Assembly: GCA_015231915.1 (NCBI GenBank) | Contig: JADGAR010000005.1 | Location: 35,716-99,715, forward strand | DNA length: 64,000 nucleotides | Direction of reading: 5' to 3' | From: Magnetococcales bacterium | Lineage (GTDB): Bacteria > Pseudomonadota > Magnetococcia > Magnetococcales > Magnetaquicoccaceae | In this document: in pieces, positions 13,272 through 19,281 of the stretch | Position numbering within the stretch: the stretch's first letter is position 1 | Layout: every line of letters starts with the position of its first letter | Notes under the pieces: generated by a model | The model's database searches: none | Seen by the model: the letters and a program-made list of their open reading frames with translations, nothing else | Told to the model about the DNA's origin: nothing | Translations under genes and position numbers: made by a program

Positions 13272-13296
13272 GGGAAACCAAGAATCGGGAGCCGCC

Positions 13297-14313
13297 ATGC
13301 CACAAACAAATGTGGAGTCTCAGCCAGAGAGTCTTGCCAAGTTGGTTGACATCTCCCAACCCCATGACCGCCTGATCAAGGCATTGCTATCACAACCAGA
13401 AACGACGGATCAATTTTTCCGTGAACACCTGCCTGCGGAGATCGTAGAGCAATTGACAGCGGACTTGCCCGAATTGGTAGAAGGTTCGTTTGTGCCAGAT
13501 GCCCTAAGCCTGTTCATCTCCGACAAACTGTTTCGCGTAAAAACGGCCCAGGGTGCCCCAGCGTTCATCCATGTATTGACCGAACACAAAAGCTATCCAG
13601 ATCGCAAAGTATCTTGGCAGATTGCACGCGGCATCATGGCCTGCACAGAACAGTTTATCCGAGAAATGGGCAAAAACTGGGAATCGCTGCCAGCCGTTAT
13701 CCCGGTGTTGATCTACCACGGCAACTCCCCATGGAACCATCCCAATAATCTGATTTCCCTGGTCGATGCCAACAGTGCCATACACCCATGGCTGCTGAAT
13801 GTCCAATATATTCTTGTCGATTTGAGTGCCACGGCGGATCCACTCTTGTCTCGACACGCCCGCTTGCGGGCAGGGTTTCTGGCATTGAAATACGGAACTC
13901 GCAGTCCGGCAGAACAGACAGAAGCCCTTGGACAGATTGCCGATGCACTGCGGGATGCACCAGAACTTTTGGTGCCAGTGATGATTTATTTAATGGCTAC
14001 ATTCACATTACTAAAGAAGAAAACCGTGCATGAGATCGTCATGCATGTCAAACCAGGGGAGGAACCGGAAATGATGTCCATCTTTGCACAAGAGATCTTG
14101 AACAACGGCAAACCAGAGTGGGCCGCCATGGTGCGGAATGAAGGCCGCCAGGAAGAAGCCGCTTACATGCTGCTCAAACAGATGCGGCGCAAGTTTGGCC
14201 AGACTCCGGACTGGGTGACCGAGAAAGTCAGGTCGGCAAACCTGGAATTGATCGAGACCTGGAGCGACAACTTCGTCTTCGCCAACTCCGTGGACGAGGT
14301 CTTCGCGCAGTGA
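13297..14313 (+). CDS. Rpn/YhgA-like nuclease (PD-(D/E)XK, transposase_31 family)
   Basis: PHDRLIKALLSQPETTDQFFREHLP, FIHVLTEHKSYPDRKVSWQIARGI, VIPVLIYHGNSPW. Confidence 0.85.
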   Translation: MPQTNVESQPESLAKLVDISQPHDRLIKALLSQPETTDQFFREHLPAEIVEQLTADLPELVEGSFVPDALSLFISDKLFRVKTAQGAPAFIHVLTEHKSYPDRKVSWQIARGIMACTEQFIREMGKNWESLPAVIPVLIYHGNSPWNHPNNLISLVDANSAIHPWLLNVQYILVDLSATADPLLSRHARLRAGFLALKYGTRSPAEQTEALGQIADALRDAPELLVPVMIYLMATFTLLKKKTVHEIVMHVKPGEEPEMMSIFAQEILNNGKPEWAAMVRNEGRQEEAAYMLLKQMRRKFGQTPDWVTEKVRSANLELIETWSDNFVFANSVDEVFAQ

Positions 14314-14454
14314 GCGGATTGCCCGGATCGGACGACACCTTGCCATTTTCCGGTCCGGATTCTCCATTTCTCCGTTTACGTTCGAAAGGTTTGATGAAAA
14401 GCCCATTGCCATCCAAGCGGGAGGCGAAAAAGGCGGATCCACAGGTGCCTCGTT

Positions 14455-14945
14455 TCACGCCAGAGAAAGTTTGACTGGCGGCAAAAAAGCATTGCATATC
14501 AACACTTTTAGTTGCACCCTGTATCAACTGATCGCCAAGAGCAACATCAAACAGATTCTCCAACCCGTCATTTTCCTGTTACATTCCGTTACGGATAATG
14601 AGTTCGCAACCGTATCACTTGCTCCACCATTTTTATTTTACATGGTTTTATCGTTGTCTGGAGTGGATTTTGGGGTGGCTTGAGTAAAGACGAAAAAGTC
14701 AAATATTTCCAATGGTTGCGAGGGGCGATTGAAAAACGCACTTGGTCAAAACTTGAGATTGCAGGCTTTGGAAAAAGCGGCCACTATTCTGCCCACGGCC
14801 CCATTCTCCAAAACCTGTAGCCCCGCTATGGGTGGGTCCGGGAATTACGGACTCATTTAATGGTATGATATTGTGAGAATATGTCACCGGATTTCATGGG
14901 ATTTTCGGGGATTTCGGCGGAACAAGGGAAATAGGTATAGTGTCC
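14455..14945 (+). mobile_element. Partial MITE-like element, copy 1 (one TIR only)
   Basis: Homologous to the reverse complement of 17729-18141 from 'TCACGCCAGAGAA' onward; its 83-bp right TIR at 14863-14945 matches 18142-18224 closely; no left TIR found upstream. Confidence 0.65.
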
Positions 14946-15020
14946 CCGGATTTTGTCCCCGGATTTCGGTATAGTGTCCCCGGATTTTAGTGTCCCCGGA
15001 TTTTAGTGTCCCCGGATTTC
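14942..15020 (+). repeat. Cluster of five 'GTCCCCGGATTT' motifs
   Basis: Motif starts near 14942, 14955, 14975, 14992 and 15008. Confidence 0.85.
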
Positions 15021-15080
15021 GATTATGCCCCAGGATTTCGGATTAAATAGGTATAGTGTAACCGGATTTAGCGATCTACC

Positions 15081-15143
15081 GGATTTATGGGATTTATGGG
15101 ATTTATGGGATTTATGGGATTTATGGGATTTATGGGATTTATG
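15081..15143 (+). repeat. 9-bp tandem repeat (GGATTTATG)x7
   Basis: Seven uninterrupted perfect units, counted directly. Confidence 0.95.
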
Positions 15144-15154
15144 CGTCCCCGGAT

Positions 15155-16423
15155 TTAAAGGTATCCTAATATTTCTCCTGATTTCCTTGAATTAAGGGAA
15201 ACAGGACCGTTCGTGCTAGACATTGAAACAAGATCTTTGTCGACGAGCAGACGAAGCGAAGAATCAAAGCTCATAACAGATTTGCAATAATGATTCTTGA
15301 GTGTTTGAATACTGCACGCTCTACCGTAAAACTTTCTATTATGCAAAGCCAATAAAATCTGTCTCGCGTCGCTATCTATATCAATGCGTCGGCTAAAACC
15401 GACAACTGATTGATCGAGACGTTCCAATACAGAATCATAGCTGCCAATACCAAAATAATGACTATGTGTTTGCCGGATAGTGGCGACATCTGATGATCCG
15501 ATCATCACAACTTCAAAACCATCGCTAGCTGGGTACTGATATTCATATTCAACATACTTCTGGCTTGCCTTATCTGAATCTCTGCTAACAATATCCCATG
15601 TTACGAATGAACCTGTATTCCAATCAAACACAATGATCCAGTTATTGAATCCAGCACGTTTTTCCTCTTTAGCGATCAGCGTTTTAATAATATCCTCGTT
15701 CACATAGCTGTCAAATACACGGTTAGAATCCGAATTTCTTATGGTATTTTCAGCTTTTTCTCGGAGAAGGTCAATATCGATTTTTTGTTGAGGCGAGGGT
15801 TTTCTTCCAGATTCAATTTCGTGGAAAACTGCCGACAATCTCTTAAAGTAATTAATTACTTGATCATCGCCCTCTTTCTCCTTTAGCCGGTATCCGTAAA
15901 TAACGGACGTCCGCTCTATGCTTTCTGCCCAATAATGTTGGACTTGGCTACGAATTTGCAATTCAAGAGCGCATCCAGAATGATCCAATATGATATGGAG
16001 CGCTCGATAGCCAGTATCATCCCTCCCATTTTCTCGGTAGTCTGTGATTCGTTTAATGGAGAATCCAACTGCTCCTAATATCTCTTTATTAATAAATTTC
16101 ACCACATTGTCAATATCTTTGTTTTCATTTACAACTATTCTGCATCCACCAATATCTTGTAGTTGAGTTAATCGAACGCTAAATCTGTTGAGTTTGCGAA
16201 TAATTTGGGGCTTTCGTTTTAATCTCTGAGCTACATAATATTTGATACCAAGAGAAGAAAGCCAATTTTGAAGTTTTACAGTACAATCTGTGAGAGGTTG
16301 AAGATGTGACTTTCTGTATTCATCAAAAATGTCATGGAATTTACGCGTATCTTCCACAGAAAGATCATCTTGCATTGCAAGAGCTTTTCCTGCACGGTCA
16401 ATCTTGGACCTTGATAAGGACAT
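15155..16423 (-). CDS. RelA/SpoT synthetase-domain protein, single-domain (toxSAS/defence candidate)
   Basis: VAQRLKRKPQIIRKL, LQDIGGCRIVV, DTGYRALHIIL, LELQIRSQVQHYWAE; no HD hydrolase, TGS or ACT domain seen. Confidence 0.8.
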   Translation of the reverse strand: MSLSRSKIDRAGKALAMQDDLSVEDTRKFHDIFDEYRKSHLQPLTDCTVKLQNWLSSLGIKYYVAQRLKRKPQIIRKLNRFSVRLTQLQDIGGCRIVVNENKDIDNVVKFINKEILGAVGFSIKRITDYRENGRDDTGYRALHIILDHSGCALELQIRSQVQHYWAESIERTSVIYGYRLKEKEGDDQVINYFKRLSAVFHEIESGRKPSPQQKIDIDLLREKAENTIRNSDSNRVFDSYVNEDIIKTLIAKEEKRAGFNNWIIVFDWNTGSFVTWDIVSRDSDKASQKYVEYEYQYPASDGFEVVMIGSSDVATIRQTHSHYFGIGSYDSVLERLDQSVVGFSRRIDIDSDARQILLALHNRKFYGRACSIQTLKNHYCKSVMSFDSSLRLLVDKDLVSMSSTNGPVSLNSRKSGEILGYL

Positions 16424-16604
16424 GTGATACCTCTACGACTAATGATGTTGACAACATAGGAGATAAAATATTATCCACCTGCTCGACGCTGCATATCCTC
16501 ATTCCTTTGAGGTAAGGACGTTAGTACAGTCTCGCCACTATGCAAGCGTTACACGCAAAGCCGACAGCCCAGCATTGCAGGGTCAGAATTGAGTGTGCGA
16601 AATC

Positions 16605-16680
16605 CGGTGACAAAATCCGATGACATGACAAAATCCGGTGACACCATACCTCTGGAAATCCGCTACCAAATCCGGTAGGG
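16605..16680 (-). repeat. Degenerate cluster of the same 'ATCCGGTGACACCATACC' repeat family, opposite orientation
   Basis: Repeated AAATCCGGTGACA / AAATCCGATGACA / AAATCCGGTGACACCATACCT. Confidence 0.7.
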
Positions 16681-16753
16681 TCGAGAACTGGCGCGCCGAT
16701 TGAGGAAAGGAACTCAATCCCACTCACTTCACGTTTCCAGTTCCCGCCACATC

Positions 16754-16786
16754 GAACCGGACGTGCGGTTTTCCCGCATCCGGCTC
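16754..16786 (-). ncRNA. Group II intron domain V
   Basis: Minus strand GAGCCGGATGCGGGAAAACCGCACGTCCGGTTC, the domain V hairpin pattern, just downstream of the RT ORF. Confidence 0.85.
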
Positions 16787-16798
16787 TCGGACAAGGTA

Positions 16799-17590
16799 TC
16801 ACACTTTCGCACGCAGGAAGTTGAGCCGCAATTGTTGCATAGAGATCAGACCCAGCTTTTGATGCAGGTATCTGTCTGGGTATCGTGCTTCCCCATTGCC
16901 TCTTTGCTTATGCTTTCTGCACAACCACTGACGGAGCCGATGTTTGGTATGAGCATCAACAGAAGCATATGAGCGACGAACTGCGCCTACAGAAAAATAG
17001 TTGGCCCAGCCTGTCAACTTACGGTTGATATCTTTCACCAATTCTTCGGCATCTTCCCATAACCATCTTTGATCTGTGCGGTCGCTGATTGTAGCGCAAA
17101 ATTTCTCCACGCTCTTCTTTGACGGCCACGTCCCTAAAATGGCTCGGCCTCCCTTCATGGTCGGATAATATCGACCAATGGTATAGCCCAGAAAATTGAA
17201 CGTCTCTTCAGGAATACAGCAAATTCGGGTCTTTTCTTCGTTTACCGTCAGTTTCAGCTTTGCCATCATCTCCCGCATGATTCGCATCGCCGCTTCCGCC
17301 GAACCTTGACAACATATGACGAAATCATCGGCATAGTTGACAATGTGACCGTCCAATACATTTTCATGACCCAGGGCTTTCCACCCCAGTATGAAACGGC
17401 GCATGTAAAGGTTTGACAGCAAGGGCGAAATTGGTGCCCCTTGCGGTGTACCCCGCTTGGTGTCTTTGGCTACGGTCGTTTGACTTTTGTTTCCTTTGTC
17501 GTCTTTCTCTTCAACCGGCATTGTCAACCACATCTTAATCAGATGCAGCATCTGGCCGTCGCTAATCCGACGACTAATCAGAAAATCCAA
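16799..17590 (-). pseudogene. ltrA: Group II intron reverse transcriptase/maturase, 5'-truncated
   Basis: GTPQGAPISPLLSNLYMRRF, IVNYADDFVICC and maturase region; N-terminal RT blocks absent and ORF begins at a repeat junction. Confidence 0.88.
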
Positions 17591-17645
17591 TCAGAAAATC
17601 CGAAATCCGGGGACACCATACCTATTTCCCTTAATTCAAATCCGA

Positions 17646-18224
17646 GGACACCATACCTATTTCCCTTGTTCCGCCGAAATCCCCGAAAATCCCATGAAAT
17701 CCGGTGACATATTTTCACGATATCATGCCATTAAGTGGGTCTGTAATTCCAAAACCTACCTATGGCTTGTTCACAGATTTTGGAGAATGCGTCCGCGGGC
17801 AGAATAGTAGCCGCTTTTTTCGAATTCTGCAAGCCCAAGTTTTTACCAAGTGCATTTTTTAACTGCTCTTCGTAACTATCGGAAATATTGAATTTTCTTG
17901 TCTCTGCTCAGGCCACCCCAAAACCCACGCCAGACAACAATAAAACAATGTAAAATAAAAAATTGTGGAGCAAGTGATGCAGTTTTGAACTCATAATACG
18001 TAATAAAGTATAACATGAAAATGACGGGTTGGAGAATCTGTTTGATGTTGCTCTTGGTTGCCAGTTGATACAGGGTGAAACCAAAATGATTGATATGAAA
18101 TATTTTTTTTCGCAAGTCAAACCTTCTCTGGCGTGAAAATAGCATGATATCGTGAAAATATGTCACCGGATTTCATGGGATTTTCGGGGATTTCGGCAAA
18201 ACAAGGGAAACAGGTATGGTGTCC
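17646..18224 (-). mobile_element. MITE-like element, complete copy (579 bp) with 83-bp terminal inverted repeats
   Basis: 17646-17728 is the reverse complement of 18142-18224 with 3 mismatches in 83; internal segment homologous to 14455-14862 in inverse orientation. Confidence 0.8.
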
Positions 18225-18323
18225 ACGGATTTCTTTTGATGTCCCACGATTTCTTTGGCGTGTCCCCGGATTTCTTTGGCGCGGGATGTACAAGAACCCA
18301 GGCGCTTGATCGAAGTGTCCGCT

Positions 18324-18641
18324 TTATCTGGGAGACAATTTCAGTTCCAGTTTGCACCCAATGGCATCGGCATAACGACGCAGGGTAGCCAGGGAGGGCG
18401 AAGTGCGCCCATTGCCCAGCGAAGACTCCAGCCGGGAAATGGCACTTGCAGTAGTCCCCATGCGTTGAGCGATCTGCTGCTGGGTTAGCCCAGCCGCTTT
18501 ACGTGCCATCAAGAACACGGAAAGAGCAGAATATTCGTCCTCTAGGGCATCGTAGGCAAGTTTGAAACCTGGACGTTTGAAGGCCTCCTGCAATTCCACA
18601 TTTAGGTCCATCGGTACGGGATTATAGCAGTCATCTTCCAT
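18324..18641 (-). CDS. XRE/HigA-like antitoxin
   Basis: HTH_XRE: ARKAAGLTQQQIAQRMGTTASAISRLESSLGNGRTSPSLATLRRYADAIGCKLELKL. Confidence 0.9.
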   Translation of the reverse strand: MEDDCYNPVPMDLNVELQEAFKRPGFKLAYDALEDEYSALSVFLMARKAAGLTQQQIAQRMGTTASAISRLESSLGNGRTSPSLATLRRYADAIGCKLELKLSPR

Positions 18642-18960
18642 GTTGCACCTCCTTCAACCGCTTGCGGGCAAGGCGAAGTTCATCGTGGGGAGTCTCGTTG
18701 CTCTTCTTGATAAAGCCATGCAGGATCACAATGGTTCGTCCGGTCTGCATACAATAAAAGGCACGTCCGGCTCCTTCTTGTCCACGGCAACGTAACTCGA
18801 ACAAACCACCACCCATGGCACGTGAATGCGGCATCCGCAAATCAATGCCATGCTCATACAGCAAATCAGCAAGGCGCAAAAAATCAGCATACACGTCGTC
18901 TGGCCAAGATTTGATCCCTTGGTGAACACGCTCGCTATAGAAAGAAATCGTCCAGTTCAT
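18631..18960 (-). CDS. RelE/HigB (gp49-like) toxin
   Basis: LRMPHSRAMGGGLFELRCRGQEGAGRAFYCMQTGRTIVILHGFIKKSNETPHDELRLARKR; overlaps the antitoxin ORF. Confidence 0.9.
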   Translation of the reverse strand: MNWTISFYSERVHQGIKSWPDDVYADFLRLADLLYEHGIDLRMPHSRAMGGGLFELRCRGQEGAGRAFYCMQTGRTIVILHGFIKKSNETPHDELRLARKRLKEVQHGR

Positions 18961-18981
18961 ATGGCGATATTAGCATTCCTG

Positions 18982-19179
18982 CTAATAAGTGGCAAGCACT
19001 GTTTCAACCAACCCAACAAAGGAGCAAACAACCATAAAAAATTGGATCCAACCGGGCGATACCGTCACGGTATCCGCCCCTGTTACCCGTTTCTTGAGCA
19101 CCACTTTGCCAGTGGCGTCTACCCCATGAAGTTGAAAGATATTCTTTGCCGAATCCAACCCGATTGTTGTAACGTTCAT
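18982..19179 (-). pseudogene. IS110-family transposase, N-terminal fragment
   Basis: MNVTTIGLDSAKNIFQLHGVDATGKVVLKKRV resembles the IS110 DEDD transposase N-terminus; homology ends after about 35 aa. Confidence 0.8.
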
Positions 19180-19281
19180 TTTGGATCCCTCAAGGATTTA
19201 TGAATGATTGCATACACCTCCATTCTGGCACATTCGATGCCTTTTCAGAAAGGATGGGTCCATCCCATCACCATAGCCATT

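Follow-up and report, generated by a model that had tools for sequence, protein, structure and literature searches.

The inverted repeat at 17638-18232 of the stretch of Magnetococcales DNA analysed here (the window, 64,000 nucleotides) is probably a one-off fold-back relic of two known kinds of mobile DNA, in which ends of the TIRYT transposase type enclose a decayed junction between two segments, B and A. A repeat search places its arms at 17638-17732 and 18138-18232, each 95 nt long and together 95% complementary, with five mismatches (at 17645, 17659, 17671, 17672 and 17729); with the 405-nt gap between them they make up a unit of 595 bp. The initial annotation had described 17646-17728 and 18142-18224 as inverted repeats, and our recount gives exactly the 3 mismatches in 83 nt that it reported; the GATATCGTGAAAATATGTCACCGGATTTCATGGGATTTTCGGGG...GGTATGGTGTCC core that it assigned to the arms is likewise found there. 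Allowing up to two mismatches, the 12-mer GGTATGGTGTCC occurs 16 times in the window, whereas 100 shuffles averaged 4.8 occurrences and never exceeded 10.

The arms are composite. In the left arm the outer ~30 bp are a TIRYT-type terminal inverted repeat (TIR), followed by GTTCCGCCGAAATCCCC..., a TIR-like filler, and then by an inner ~20 bp that correspond to the truncated end of segment A; the right arm repeats this in inverted form. Some 65 of the 95 bases in an arm are thus foreign to the transposase unit, as is the whole interior, and we read the inner ~20 bp together with the interior as a decayed B-A junction and not as the body of a transposon. Further TIR material flanks the unit on both sides: another copy of the outer TIR, AAATCCGGGGACACCATACCTATTTCCCTT (17603-17632, within a feature at 17602-17637 on the plus strand found by repeat search and pattern scan), abuts a group II intron fragment, and two degenerate TIR-like units detected in the repeat search lie outside the right arm (18233-18273, minus strand).

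The outer ~30 bp of the arms, AAATCCGnGGACACCATACCTATTTCCCTT, have 39 matches in the genome at up to three mismatches, grouped in clusters at a small number of loci and spread over five contigs; a reversed-pattern control has none. On contig C59 such a cluster adjoins the gene of a 224-aa Y1 transposase (PF01797/Y1_Tnp, 1e-13), which also matches the NCBIfam model REP_Tyr_transpos at 1.3e-18, a score below that family's cut-off. When the surroundings of 80 homologues of this protein, drawn from genome contigs of many phyla, were scanned with the repeat core, it was present within 600 bp at 48 of the 80 loci, compared with 1 of 80 for the reversed pattern. Its polarity at these loci is strict, upstream cores being in plus orientation by 44:1 and downstream cores in minus orientation by 47:4, and the upstream core often stands exactly 57 bp ahead of the gene. 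Two loci read directly (L166 and L172) have inverted repeats around the transposase gene, and the resulting '+ gene -' arrangement has the same polarity as the arms of 17638-18232.

Searching the literature for the sequence of the repeat brought up no relevant publication. The arrangement is that of the TIR-associated tyrosine transposases, TIRYT or TIRtron (Di Nocera et al. 2013, PMC3733652), Y1 transposases whose flanking TIRs share the motif GGGGWSAS and also occur as dimers and clusters. Here too, a Y1 gene lies between inverted repeats that carry this motif, in the form GGGGACAC, and the repeats form dimers and clusters. The C59 protein has the motifs NHVH, WQ and YVELNP, close to those tabulated for TnpAY1 subclass 2.1, namely NHVH, W[EQ] and YIELNP-like (Y[IV]ELNP) (Quentin et al. 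2018, PMC6006769), and is by these motifs of the subclass 2.1 type; TIRYT/TIRtron and TnpAY1 subclass 2.1 are probably one and the same. The unit in the window differs from a TIRYT in that its repeats enclose 405 bp of unrelated sequence as well, and its arms reach 95 nt because non-TIR sequence has been duplicated along with the TIR.

Relatives show what this transposase family does produce. Its TIRs occur there as 66-bp inverted doublets, with eleven +- pairs spaced exactly 48 bp apart, and as ~140-bp internal-deletion copies in which the two ends enclose the initial 14 codons of the transposase gene; both are derivatives of a MITE-like kind. Like these doublets with their fixed spacing, the unit in the window resembles REPINs in having two inverted copies of a transposase-associated repeat (Bertels and Rainey 2011, PMC3116915). 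REPINs, however, are short doublets in high copy number that form a hairpin through the spacer, whereas 17638-18232 is ~600 bp long, present in a single copy and non-palindromic in its interior, and the repeat here carries no GTAG foot. TIR clusters in the order '- gene +', the reverse of the '+ transposase -' polarity, surround single genes on contigs C59, C56 and C95 of this genome (G000), at 14935-16651 of the window and at L067. At the C56 locus, near-identical coding stretches of ~630 bp (L032, 2583-3350 and 3-635) lie ~2.7 kb apart and adjoin the TIR cluster.

The interior of the unit is read on the minus strand, B first and then A. Segment B (17948-18138) is decayed and ends like the 3' end of a tRNA (CATCACTTGCTCCACAA, terminus ...CTCCACCA). 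Segment A (17709-17947), also decayed, is cut at GAAAATAT/GTCACC and is 73-74% identical to its relatives; it is a homologue of a ~265-bp sequence that follows tRNA and tmRNA 3' ends across the order. Neither segment gives grounds for a coding interior. The 96-aa ORF inside the unit (17876-18166, minus strand) has no Pfam or NCBIfam match, and a protein-coding interior was dropped; as first annotated, its frame is not kept in the second copy, where it is broken and a 70-aa ORF stands instead. One frame is open in the relatives' A (e.g. SNVSNGYAGRFENALGR...) and broken in the copies of the window, so that a coding A was rejected as well. As to a known RNA, an Rfam search of nine loci brought no match for A that reached the gathering score, and its consensus fold lies only 1.75 standard deviations below shuffles, for which reason we make no RNA claim. 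The unit is non-coding, and its earlier description as non-autonomous is supported.

Of 48 genomes from the order, 35 have segment A, and there it occurs without the arms of the window. Where the left end of A is intact, it lies behind a tRNA (Met/Ile2-CAT, Ala or Lys), the tmRNA 3' end or a B-type end (...GTATCACTTGCTCCACCA, a CCACCA end), with one exception, a locus in G036; the tRNAs observed ahead of A include Met/Ile2, Val, Ala (three anticodons) and Lys, along with the tmRNA. B in turn follows Rpn-family genes in the window and in the relatives G002, G004 and G007; in G005 and G039 the B-type ends are likewise preceded by the ends of Rpn-type genes. After the B end in G002 comes an ORF that, by reading alone, looks like a P4-type integrase.

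At the opposite side from A we find an operon of a small ORF, ORF2, and a large serine recombinase (LSR; PF07508 and PF13408). ORF2 lies within 12 kb on the same contig for 34 of 99 copies of A, the two being convergent in 32 of these 34, at distances from 61 bp to about 11 kb. Examples of this element family (among them L245, L249, L251, L253-L255 and L262) have the order tRNA/tmRNA 3' end, conserved A, cargo, ORF2, recombinase and DUF2924-like ORF, and the ORF upstream of the recombinase is one that we take to be DUF2924-like. A tyrosine integrase was considered as the enzyme of A, and none of the eight integrase loci of the genome carries A or B; a serine recombinase fits this role instead, and A probably forms the terminus of an integrative element on its tRNA side. 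In the order, A resembles the tRNA-side end of the LSR integrative elements found at tRNA and tmRNA genes, the difference being that the window holds decayed ends only, with the A end alone remaining of an element that elsewhere has the recombinase gene within it. Neither ORF2 nor the recombinase has a match in the window, and we therefore regard its A and B as relics. In two genomes a TIRYT gene lies inside the recombinase-associated ORF2 (L140, 4701-5688; L031, 1779-2704), and at L140 about 40 codons of ORF2 are repeated either side of it.

In copies of A (such as L101, L117, L119 and L121) a short motif, GGACCCRC, GGACTCAC or GGACCAG, recurs three to five times in direct and inverted orientation, and by eye its occurrences appear to change together within each copy of A, in the manner of co-evolving binding sites or alternative hairpins. 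We tentatively suggest, at rather less than even confidence, that the interior is what remains of a kind of small integrative element in Magnetococcales that has been little described, with seemingly co-varying A repeats and 0-8 kb of cargo, the boundaries of which TIRYT repeats may then colonise and where they can make fold-backs. At two loci in this genome the cargo would include a candidate or known defence gene; at the comparable C59 locus a kinase matches PD-T4-6 in PADLOC.

A second copy of the B-A junction lies close by in the window. Copy 2 (14453-14987, minus strand) is inverted relative to copy 1, 83% identical to it over 537 nt, and has one arm only. Its segment B (14314-14645, plus strand, end ...GTATCACTTGCTCCACCA) directly follows an Rpn-family gene on the outer side (13297-14313, plus strand; PF04754 and DUF4351), and its segment A (14643-14882, plus strand) is cut at the same junction with the TIR as in copy 1. 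The single arm, which spans 72 nt with three differences from the left arm, passes into a TIR cluster and a 9-bp tandem (14859-15152 in all, minus strand); this tandem, GGATTTATG, has about seven units at 15073-15152. The right arm of copy 1 joins B where copy 2 has Rpn-side sequence. Between the inverted copies stands a RelA/SpoT-domain gene (15155-16423, minus strand; PADLOC PDC-S33, 5.5e-59), a candidate defence gene, with TIR units 5' of it (16601-16660, plus strand, from the pattern scan); we discarded the idea that it is a conserved resident, as no close relative was found in 48 genomes of the order. The two copies also enclose the 3' part of a group II intron (16676-17590, minus strand), recognised by its Rfam Intron_gpII match and a reverse transcriptase/maturase gene (16799-17590) that lacks the N terminus; TIR units adjoin both ends of the fragment. 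Beyond the right arm, on its outer side, comes a toxin-antitoxin-like pair (Gp49/DUF891 and HTH_3; 18324-18960, minus strand). G001, the closest genome, has flanking genes of 89-93% identity but only 0.9 kb in place of 13279-19272 (6 kb), so the whole 6-kb island is variable. Carriage by a plasmid was also considered, and copy 2 has no match in the plasmid collection.

The initial annotation took the unit for a MITE, and that reading stands in part: the ends do come from a mobile family and the unit is non-autonomous. Like a MITE, it has terminal inverted repeats (95 nt, five mismatches) and no conserved coding capacity. A genuine MITE would be a TIRYT-ended unit that had taken up part of an integrative element and is mobilised as a whole by TIRYT acting in trans, and several observations favour it. 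The transposase with matching ends that the annotation proposed to look for exists in the genome (C59), the outer ends match in the right polarity, and internal-deletion derivatives of the TIRYT unit are present in the relative L066. The match to the autonomous transposase, however, covers the outer ~30 bp only, and the arms extend 65 bp inwards into non-TIRYT DNA, far beyond the matching ends of the transposase. No further copy of the two-armed unit occurs among 61 genomes, a limited sample of this uncultured order and mostly draft MAGs in which repeats collapse and repeat counts are lower bounds, and the second copy of the B-A junction is one-armed. There is no target-site duplication longer than 5 bp, those present lying within repeat sequence, and no exact empty site in the 61 genomes; what is missing from the sister genome G001 is the larger island as a whole. 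By the rule that the annotation itself had set (no other copies or empty sites), its MITE claim fails, and we consider it unlikely that this unit is a MITE. The same evidence makes it most likely that the unit as such no longer moves. What counts against a fold-back relic is that the outer ends, in the order + ... -, are oriented as in a complete TIRYT unit, which leaves some probability of movement as a whole; the limited sample of genomes counts against it as well.

The arms themselves carry a record of their history. A ends at the same base in copies 1 and 2 and is followed in both by the TIR cluster, which shows that this junction is older than the split of the two copies. Over the 72 nt common to the three arms, there are 3 differences between left and right, 3 between left and copy 2, and 6 between right and copy 2. 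The left arm departs from copy 2 at three sites in the A end, all within a 20-bp stretch, which narrows the basis of the comparison; at each of them the right arm has the base of the left arm and copy 2 has the consensus of the relatives. Because these three derived bases are common to both arms, the right arm must have arisen from the left by inverted duplication. This order of changes places the duplication of the arm after the divergence of copies 1 and 2. The TIR parts of the left arm and copy 2 show 0 differences in 52 positions while the interiors differ by 17%, and such identity despite diverged interiors suggests later homogenisation. These data also bear on the idea that two TIR clusters inserted independently on either side of the relic, so that the arms are alike through the repeat family only. 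Opposite-orientation clusters do flank other genes here (C59, C56 and C95), but independent insertions would not produce a stretch of A end and an exact A-TIR junction in both arms, nor the shared derived bases, and we hold this reading to be more doubtful still than a MITE. Finally, a regulatory or terminator hairpin serving the neighbouring defence and toxin-antitoxin genes is very improbable, given that the interior is decaying (83% identity between copies), the unit is not conserved and the genomes searched hold no second example. In its favour, arms so long and nearly perfect could fold into a stable hairpin or cruciform, and the unit is placed between the region of the RelA/SpoT gene and the toxin-antitoxin pair.

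For a fold-back relic we propose the following sequence of events. The outer ends are the terminal repeats that belong to a Y1/HUH transposase of TIRYT type, and the enzyme presumably spread them in trans through single-stranded intermediates. The B-A junction would bring together the tRNA/tmRNA-side end of an LSR integrative element (A) and a tRNA-3'-like attachment end (B). TIR units came into A before the copies split, given that both have the same junction, and the block of B-A and TIR is now present twice, inverted around the RelA/SpoT candidate defence gene. In copy 1, an inverted duplicate of the A end and its TIR stretch was then added on the side of B, as the shared derived bases show, and this produced the long, near-perfect arms; fold-back template switching or recombination between TIRs are plausible molecular routes for this step.

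The repeat described here represents a family of many phyla that is tied to its transposase by strict polarity. The unit at 17638-18232 would illustrate in detail a way for MITE-like structures to form with no mobile family behind them, in which the end-repeats of a transposase land in the end of another element and an inverted duplication follows. It further points to a widespread serine-recombinase element in magnetotactic cocci, in which the tRNA-side end is conserved and the cargo varies, some of it being related to defence.
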